Assembly (NCBI GenBank): GCA_018969715.1
Contig: JAGWXT010000008.1
Span: 1 to 64,000 of the forward strand
Length of the DNA stretch: 64,000 nucleotides
Direction: 5' to 3'
Source of the DNA: Actinomycetales bacterium
GTDB taxonomy: Bacteria; Actinomycetota; Actinomycetes; S36-B12; UBA5976
Each line of letters starts with the position of its first letter. The stretch's first letter is position 1. The notes under the pieces are model-generated. The model did not search any database. It was not told the origin of the DNA and saw nothing but the letters and a program-made list of their open reading frames with translations. The translations under genes and the position numbers were made by a program. Of the stretch, positions 20,536 through 35,958 are shown one piece after another.

Positions 20536-20543
20536 CCGCCCGC

Positions 20544-20582
20544 GCACGTCCGCCCCGCACGTCCGCCCCGCACGTCCGCCCT
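20544..20582. repeat. 13-bp tandem repeat x3 between convergent htpX and ubiA-like genes
   Basis: GCACGTCCGCCCC / GCACGTCCGCCCC / GCACGTCCGCCCT. Confidence 0.9.
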
Positions 20583-24256: not shown

Positions 24257-24328
24257 GGGTACCGCGGCACTCCGCCATGGGTACCGCGGCACTCCGCCAT
24301 GGGTACCGCGGCACTCCGCCATGGGTAC
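24257..24328. repeat. 22-bp perfect tandem repeat x3 plus 6-bp partial copy in divergent intergenic region
   Basis: (GGGTACCGCGGCACTCCGCCAT)x3 + GGGTAC. Confidence 0.97.
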
Positions 24329-33319: not shown

Positions 33320-34296
33320 CGGCCCCCACCCGGATCGGCCTGGGCGTCGCTGCGGGAGTCGACGATGTCAAGCACCCAGGGGTTCGCCATCAGCCAGGAC
33401 ACGGTGTGCCGGACCGACGCCTCGATCGTGTAGCGGGGACGCCAGCCGGTGGACCGCACCCGCGCGGTATCCAGCCAGATGAAGGGGTTGTCCCCCACCC
33501 ATCCGCGGTCCCCGCCGGTGAACTCGAGCACCGGGGCCAGTCCGAGCTCGTCGACGATCCATCCGATGGAGTCCAGCACCGTGCAGTACTCGGCAGTGCC
33601 GAGATTGACAACCGAGAAGGGCTCGCCTGTGCGAACGGTGCTGACCGCCGCCACGCAGTCGTCGACATGCATATAGGACTTGCGCTGCGTGCCGTCACCG
33701 AGAACGAGCAGGCGCATCGGATCGCGTCGCAGCTGGCGGATGAAGTCGATGACGTGTCCGTGGGTGTAACGAGGACCCAGCACCGACACGAAGCGGAAGA
33801 CCGTCACGGTGAGCAGGCCCGCCTCCGCGTAGGCGGCGAGGAAGCCCTCCGCCGCACTCTTTGCAGCCCCGTAGAGGCTGGTCTGGATCGGATACGGCGC
33901 ATCCTCAGGAGTCGGGATCACGGCGGCTTGGCCGTACACCGACCCGGTTGAGCTGAAGATCAACTCACGGACGCCCGCTGCGGTGCAGGCGTCGGCAACA
34001 TTCAGGGTGGCAATCACATTCTGGCTCAGGTCACGCCGGCGGTCCTGCCAGCCGAACCTGACATCGGCATTGGCAGCCAGGTGGTACACCGCCGCGGCCC
34101 CGGCGACGATGTCCCCGAGGTCGGTCGTCGGGGAGCACAGGTCGATTCGGTGCAGGTGGCAGTCGATATCGGTGAGGAAACGCGCCTGACCGGTACTGAG
34201 GTTGTCGACAACGTGGACCTCATGACCCGCCCGGACGAACTCGGCGGCGAGGTTGCTGCCGATGAAACCCGCACCCCCGGTGATGACGTACTTCAT
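33316..34296 (-). CDS. NAD-dependent epimerase (UDP-glucose 4-epimerase-like)
   Basis: MKYVITGGAGFIGSNLAAEFVRAG; SSTGSVYG; SLYGAAKSAAEG. Confidence 0.88.
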   Translation of the reverse strand: MKYVITGGAGFIGSNLAAEFVRAGHEVHVVDNLSTGQARFLTDIDCHLHRIDLCSPTTDLGDIVAGAAAVYHLAANADVRFGWQDRRRDLSQNVIATLNVADACTAAGVRELIFSSTGSVYGQAAVIPTPEDAPYPIQTSLYGAAKSAAEGFLAAYAEAGLLTVTVFRFVSVLGPRYTHGHVIDFIRQLRRDPMRLLVLGDGTQRKSYMHVDDCVAAVSTVRTGEPFSVVNLGTAEYCTVLDSIGWIVDELGLAPVLEFTGGDRGWVGDNPFIWLDTARVRSTGWRPRYTIEASVRHTVSWLMANPWVLDIVDSRSDAQADPGGGR

Positions 34297-34329
34297 CCGG
34301 GCGGACGGTTCATGGGTTCCGATGCCCAC

Positions 34330-34944
34330 TCATCCGGTGACGCTCTCCCACTTCGGGCGATCCGCGCCGAGGAGTGGATGGCCGACGAGGAGGTGCCAGA
34401 TGACCGCCTGAAAACCCTCGGTCTGGGTGGTCACGGAAGCGGCGTTGACGGTTGGGATGATGACGCAGGCATCGGCGACGCGAGCGAGGTGCCCCCCATC
34501 GCGACCCGCGACACCGACAACACGGGCACCCACCACTCGCGCATAGTCCACCGCCCCAACCAGCTGGGCGCTGATGGCCCGCGCCGCATCACCGCCCCCG
34601 ACCGAGAACACGAACAGGCAGTCCTTCGCACGCAGCCGAGAGGCGCGCAGCCAATCCGCGTAGCAGGTGTCCCATCCCTCGTCATTGATGCGCGCAGTCA
34701 GCTCGGTGACGTTGTCGGTGACGCAGTAGGACTCGATTCCGACGATCTTGCGGAAGTCGGATGCAGCGTGGGAGGCATGGCCCGCACCGCCCCCCGAACC
34801 ACAGAGGAACAACCGGCCCGCGGCCGCCTTGACCTCGGCCAGGACAGCCGCAACCGCCTCGACCGTCGCATCGTCAAGGCGCTCGCAGATCGTCATGGCG
34901 TCACGCAGGAAGGACCTGCTGTAGGTGTCCACTACCTGGGTCAC
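34330..34944 (-). CDS. SIS-domain phosphosugar isomerase (GmhA-like)
   Basis: LFLCGSGGGAGHASHAASDFRK ... FVFSVGGGDAARAISAQLV. Confidence 0.82.
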   Translation of the reverse strand: MTQVVDTYSRSFLRDAMTICERLDDATVEAVAAVLAEVKAAAGRLFLCGSGGGAGHASHAASDFRKIVGIESYCVTDNVTELTARINDEGWDTCYADWLRASRLRAKDCLFVFSVGGGDAARAISAQLVGAVDYARVVGARVVGVAGRDGGHLARVADACVIIPTVNAASVTTQTEGFQAVIWHLLVGHPLLGADRPKWESVTG

Positions 34945-35101
34945 CGCCTCCCGTCCAAGGGTGCTGTGCGCACCGAGGGGCCGCGCCCGGCTCGGCCACG
35001 GCCATTCCTGCCCTTACTGGCCTCGCGTATCCTATGGTGCCCAGACACTCGGGCCGATGGAGCCGACGTCCCTCGAGATCTGGAACAGAGTGCCCCGCCG
35101 G

Positions 35102-35185
35102 TACCGCCGAATCAGCACCGCCGAATCAGTGCCGCCCAGTCAGTGCCGCCGAACCAGCACCGCCCAGTCAGTGCCGCCCCGACAA
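35102..35185. repeat. 14-bp degenerate tandem repeat x6 abutting the transaldolase start
   Basis: TACCGCCGAATCAG / CACCGCCGAATCAG / TGCCGCCCAGTCAG / TGCCGCCGAACCAG / CACCGCCCAGTCAG / TGCCGCCCCGACAA. Confidence 0.92.
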
Positions 35186-35958
35186 TGCCGACGAGAGAAC
35201 GCCGGCCACGAGATGAGGTGGGTCCGTTGTCACCGTCACCGCTCACGCCCCCGTGGGGGACCGGAATCGCCCTGTTCGCCGACGGGGCGGACCTGGACAG
35301 CATCCGTGCCCTTGCTGCCGATGATCGCGTCGGCGGCTTCACGACGAACCCGACATTGATGCGCAAGGCGGGGATCACCGACTACATCACCTTCGCCCAG
35401 CAGGCGGCTGCCATCGTTGCACCGCGCTCGCTCTCCTTGGAGGTGTTTGCCGATGACATCGCCAACATCATCCGGCAGGCGAGGATCATCCACACCTGGG
35501 GCGACAACGTCTACGTCAAGGTGCCGGTGACGACGACCGATGGCGCGCCCACAACCGATGCGATCCGGACGCTTGCGGCCGAGGGCGTGCGGCTGAACGT
35601 GACCGCCCTCACCACCCTCGAGCAGGTCGCGCGCGTCACCGATGAGCTGACCGGGTCGGTGGCGAGCATCGTGTCGGTGTTCGCCGGGCGAATCGCCGAC
35701 TCCGGCGTCGATCCCGTGCCGCTGATGTCCGCCGCGGCCGTGCTGACCAGCCAGCGCACTGGCTGTGACCTGCTGTGGGCAAGTTCCCGCGAGGTGCTCA
35801 ACATCGTGCAGGCGTGGCAGAGTGGCTGCCAGATCATCACCCTCACCGCCGACCTCTGGGCGAAGCTCGGGGGGGTCGGACGACCGCTGGCCGACATCTC
35901 CCTGGACACCGTCCAGATGTTCGCCCGCGATGCCGACCACGCCGGCTACCAGCTGTAG
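35185..35958 (+). CDS. transaldolase family protein
   Basis: GIALFADGADLDSIRALAADDRVGGFTTNPTLMRKAG; NVYVKVPVT; LNVTALTTLEQV; start uncertain (35185 or 35218). Confidence 0.85.
   Translation: MPTRERRPRDEVGPLSPSPLTPPWGTGIALFADGADLDSIRALAADDRVGGFTTNPTLMRKAGITDYITFAQQAAAIVAPRSLSLEVFADDIANIIRQARIIHTWGDNVYVKVPVTTTDGAPTTDAIRTLAAEGVRLNVTALTTLEQVARVTDELTGSVASIVSVFAGRIADSGVDPVPLMSAAAVLTSQRTGCDLLWASSREVLNIVQAWQSGCQIITLTADLWAKLGGVGRPLADISLDTVQMFARDADHAGYQL

Follow-up and report, generated by a model that had tools for sequence, protein, structure and literature searches.

A degenerate 14-bp tandem array between divergent SIS isomerase and transaldolase genes: very probably a neutral intergenic minisatellite

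What is the array?

The gap between a divergent SIS isomerase gene and a transaldolase gene carries six degenerate 14-bp repeats, and these are very probably a neutral, lineage-specific intergenic minisatellite that formed by local duplication. We observe directly the array and how it is built, and also that it is unique, that homologous genes lack it upstream and that similar arrays abound in the same genome. The features in the following list lie in the window, by which we mean the whole stretch of 64,000 nucleotides that was analysed.

34330..34944, minus strand: SIS-domain isomerase gene (GmhA-like), the divergent neighbour (Pfam SIS_2, 2e-8; homologues)
34945..35226, strand not applicable: intergenic region with the array, 282 bp (sequence read)
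35028..35033, plus strand: TATCCT, a -10-like hexamer (sequence read; -35 partner not found)
35102..35185, plus strand: 14-bp x 6 degenerate tandem array, good in units 1-5, decayed in unit 6 and followed by a vestigial seventh unit at 35186-35199
35215..35221, plus strand: GAGGTGG, Shine-Dalgarno-like, 5 bp before TTG 35227 (sequence read)
35227..35958, plus strand: transaldolase / fructose-6-phosphate aldolase family gene (Pfam TAL_FSA, 1.5e-37; likely start TTG 35227)

Is the array real, and how is it built?

A preliminary description of this DNA had reported six 14-bp units of the type YRCCGCCSARYCAG at 35102-35185, and in that register the array, its place and its period all stand, although unit 6 departs from the consensus. 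The units read, in order, TACCGCCGAATCAG, CACCGCCGAATCAG, TGCCGCCCAGTCAG, TGCCGCCGAACCAG, CACCGCCCAGTCAG and TGCCGCCCCGACAA, and directly 3' of the sixth lies a seventh, vestigial one (TGCCGACGAGAGAA, at 35186-35199). Tandem Repeats Finder returns periods of 14, 28 and 42 bp for the array, with scores of 75, 103 and 133, respectively. We regard it as real because none of 2000 dinucleotide-preserving shuffles matches its periodicity: the best lag score in the 282-bp gap is 28 (at 42 bp), as against a maximum of 14 among the shuffles, so that the head-to-tail copies go beyond chance. They also lie outside coding sequence, with the SIS gene starting at 34944 on one side and the transaldolase probably at 35227 on the other.

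Units 1-5 are good copies that differ pairwise at 1-5 bases, and unit 6 is decayed, with 3-7 differences from the other five. Neighbouring units differ, in order, at 1, 4, 3, 5 and 5 positions; units three apart differ at only 2, 2 and 3, which is on average the lowest of the separations, and units 1-3 pair best with units 4-6 at 42 bp. This pattern suggests that one three-unit (42-bp) duplication took part in forming the array. Substitutions in units 1-5 are confined to 5 of the 14 positions, with CCGCC, an A and CAG invariant, a restriction that shared descent of diverged units explains and that selection also could. Of the earlier proposal of an older or selected array, the degeneracy is certainly borne out, these not being recent perfect copies, but a selected or otherwise regulatory role, while possible, is unsupported.

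Where does the transaldolase start, and could the array switch it?

The preliminary description took the ATG at 35185 as a candidate start. This codon does exist, beginning on the last base of unit 6, but it comes without a recognisable ribosome-binding site, and both the homologues and GAGGTGG favour TTG 35227: counted from that TTG, alignments to homologues mostly begin near residue 14, and a codon-bias gene call also picks 35227. The start is therefore probably TTG 35227 and not ATG 35185, with the end of the array lying 41 bp before it. That the array is itself coding was considered and rejected, for although the frame is open across it (ORF 34081-35958), most homologues align only from that same residue.

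With the likely start outside the array, the argument that gain or loss of a unit would frameshift translation falls. This bears on the idea of a phase-variable repeat that tunes transaldolase expression through changes in copy number, to which tandem repeats lying before a gene probably for cell-surface sugars, with a period that is not a multiple of 3, might at first sight seem well suited. Frequent slippage, however, is not to be expected of units so diverged (most neighbours differ at 3-5 positions) and the likely start could suffer no frameshift, and we consider the idea extremely improbable.

Is there a promoter or an RNA element here?

The TATCCT that had been proposed as a -10 element is present at 35028-35033, but it is accompanied by neither a -35 partner nor any sigma-70-like promoter, and a search of the array region for sigma-70 promoters and terminators gave no match. 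The search for inverted repeats yielded only two palindromes of 9 nt each, the first at the array's left edge and the second beyond the array; no hairpin or terminator was found at the array, and this candidate was set aside. An RNA element was likewise rejected, given no Rfam match to the array region and folding weaker than in shuffled sequence.

A related possibility is that the array forms a C-rich, unstructured RNA leader, such as a Rho-utilisation-like site within the 5' untranslated region of the transaldolase. The plus strand is indeed C-rich (C/G 1.85) and folds less strongly than its shuffles (z = +2.1), as such a leader might. However, the same C/G is reached by 22% of the genome's intergenic strands, the coding strand of arrays in co-oriented gaps is not consistently biased towards C (mean 0.12, range -0.51 to 0.77), and Rfam offers no match in support. 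With C-richness so common in the gaps of this genome, we rejected a Rho-type leader, which we would call highly improbable.

Is the array shared with other loci or other genomes?

The genome search for the 14-bp consensus that had been recommended was carried out as a pattern search, and it returned no perfect copy anywhere else in the genome. At two or fewer mismatches the consensus occurs at 19 places, 5 of them in the array, as against 11 for a reversed control pattern, and BLAST of the whole 282-bp gap against the genome recovers only the gap itself plus chance-level matches. A dispersed repeat family, of the MIRU-like kind, was rejected, as neither the consensus search nor the DNA search of the genome found a further copy.

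The flanking genes are as the preliminary description had them, and gene and family assignments bear out a position between divergent SIS (minus) and transaldolase (plus) genes in a sugar cluster, since the pair is surrounded by epimerases, GFO/IDH/MocA oxidoreductases, glycosyltransferases and a DegT aminotransferase. As an accessory gene, the transaldolase occurs in 2 genomes out of 166 in the order and in 2 out of 395 in the class (this genome counted in each). Among 63 homologues, only that of Acidithrix ferrooxidans (L114) has the same transaldolase and SIS genes adjacent and divergent. There, at L114:5149-10762, the divergent pair is followed by an apparent full NDP-heptose gene set: after SIS come an epimerase, a GFO/IDH/MocA-type oxidoreductase and GHMP-kinase-like, nucleotidyltransferase-like and HAD-like genes, all named by reading the sequences and not by family search. 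GmhA-type isomerases use sedoheptulose 7-phosphate in the NDP-heptose pathway, and the Acidithrix set resembles that pathway, to judge from its predicted genes.

In 38 relatives, all of them outside the genus, nothing syntenic matches the DNA of the array region, and not one of the 63 homologous transaldolase genes in the loci that we fetched is preceded by a tandem array within 400 bp. It had been proposed that absence from close relatives with conserved flanking genes would count against a special role; the 135-bp divergent gap of Acidithrix does lack an array, but this sole relative found with the adjacent divergent arrangement is a distant one.

These comparisons weigh on the idea of a multi-site operator, in which cooperative binding of a transcription factor to the CCGCC..CAG units would control the divergent heptose-type sugar genes. 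The location in a divergent promoter gap and the constancy of CCGCC, A and CAG in units 1-5 are what one might hope to see. Yet the units lack palindromic symmetry, the consensus is nowhere else in the genome matched perfectly and its two-mismatch matches are close in number to those of the reversed control, arrays of other sequence are just as dense in convergent gaps (see below), and sites kept upstream of orthologues are not seen in this comparison of 63 transaldolases and the Acidithrix gap, which contains no close relatives. We think such an operator unlikely. A recently evolved, lineage-specific version, in which tandem duplication of one putative binding site would have produced a cooperative operator co-regulating SIS and transaldolase, strikes us as very unlikely.

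How common are such arrays in this genome?

The company that the array keeps speaks for an ordinary minisatellite. In a census of 464 kb of the genome, window included (sample loci L126-L145; array score of at least 50), we counted 43 intergenic arrays in 47.6 kb of noncoding DNA, or 90 per 100 kb, with gene calls that are approximate, as they come from a simple codon model (a second model missed the transaldolase itself). Shuffled intergenic DNA yields 0-4 arrays, so the real count is about 25-fold higher. Periods among the sampled arrays run from 12 to 42 bp, and their sequences mostly bear no relation to one another, with two weak matching pairs only, so that the array is one among many unrelated loci. 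Given these dozens of unrelated intergenic repeat runs, it looks like the product of ordinary copying slippage and not like a special switch. Nor does its location single it out: divergent gaps hold 10 arrays in 11.4 kb, convergent gaps 10 in 10.5 kb and co-oriented gaps 22 in 22.9 kb (0.88, 0.95 and 0.96 per kb, respectively), and with density equal across gap types, random placement is enough to account for one in a divergent promoter gap.

This genome has unusually many intergenic minisatellites, more than the relatives sampled, all of which were covered less deeply: four family relatives have 0, 0, 24 and 34 arrays per 100 kb (5 arrays in about 39.5 kb pooled), and order relatives have 0, 15 and 66, from similarly smaller samples. 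Loss of NucS mismatch repair was considered as a cause of the many arrays and rejected, because the NucS C-terminal domain is present and a missing NucS therefore offers no explanation; the array-rich relative G027 has this domain too. Of the 18 genomes having the domain, this one (G000:C31:51577-51891) has the weakest best match, which spans only positions 1-107 of 124; the domain may be truncated or divergent.

Two other arrays of the class lie beside conserved genes and can be followed into relatives. The trxB-trxA gap is mostly occupied by a 13-bp x 4.8 array (CCACCCAGCCGAC, L137:18311-18376) that is absent from the orthologous place in 28 of 28 relatives that share this gene pair, and a 15-bp array at the menJ 3' end is absent from 23 of 23 relatives compared; arrays of this class are thus lineage-specific where this is testable, which bears indirectly on the 14-bp array. 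Two more lie in the window. One, at 24257-24328, is a perfect 22-bp x 3.3 array (GGGTACCGCGGCACTCCGCCAT) between DegT aminotransferase (minus) and hexapeptide transferase (plus) genes, with ATG at the unit junctions, so that the frame of the available start codon changes from one unit to the next. The other, a 13-bp x 3.5 array at 20536-20581, makes up exactly the 46-bp gap between the convergent ends of M48 peptidase and UbiA prenyltransferase genes.

How might the array have arisen, and what does it resemble?

In the neutral minisatellite account, a 14-bp stretch between SIS and transaldolase would have been duplicated through replication slippage or unequal recombination, apparently with one three-unit (42-bp) event along the way, and would then have decayed by point substitution; the array would sit in the transaldolase 5' untranslated region or a spacer and need no function of its own. 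We infer both slippage as the process and neutrality. As an ordinary intergenic repeat, the array alone matters little, and it is perhaps most useful as a caution, since chance alone can be expected to put repeats into the divergent promoter gaps of this genome. More interesting is the richness of the whole genome in minisatellites, which could serve strain typing or the study of repeat formation.

Among known systems, mycobacterial interspersed repetitive units (MIRU) are likewise tandem repeats in actinobacterial intergenic regions; they form one dispersed sequence family, however, and this 14-mer is found at a single place. More generally, a survey found close 10-bp direct repeats to be mostly over-represented in prokaryotic intergenic regions (PMC4060949), although it counts repeat pairs genome by genome and not arrays of 14-bp period. 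The nearest likeness is to bacterial intergenic minisatellites, the VNTR loci of MLVA typing: although this array, unlike a typical VNTR, is degenerate, may no longer vary and is known from one genome, it shares with them head-to-tail units in the range of about 10-40 bp, an intergenic position, sequences unrelated from locus to locus and restriction to a lineage.
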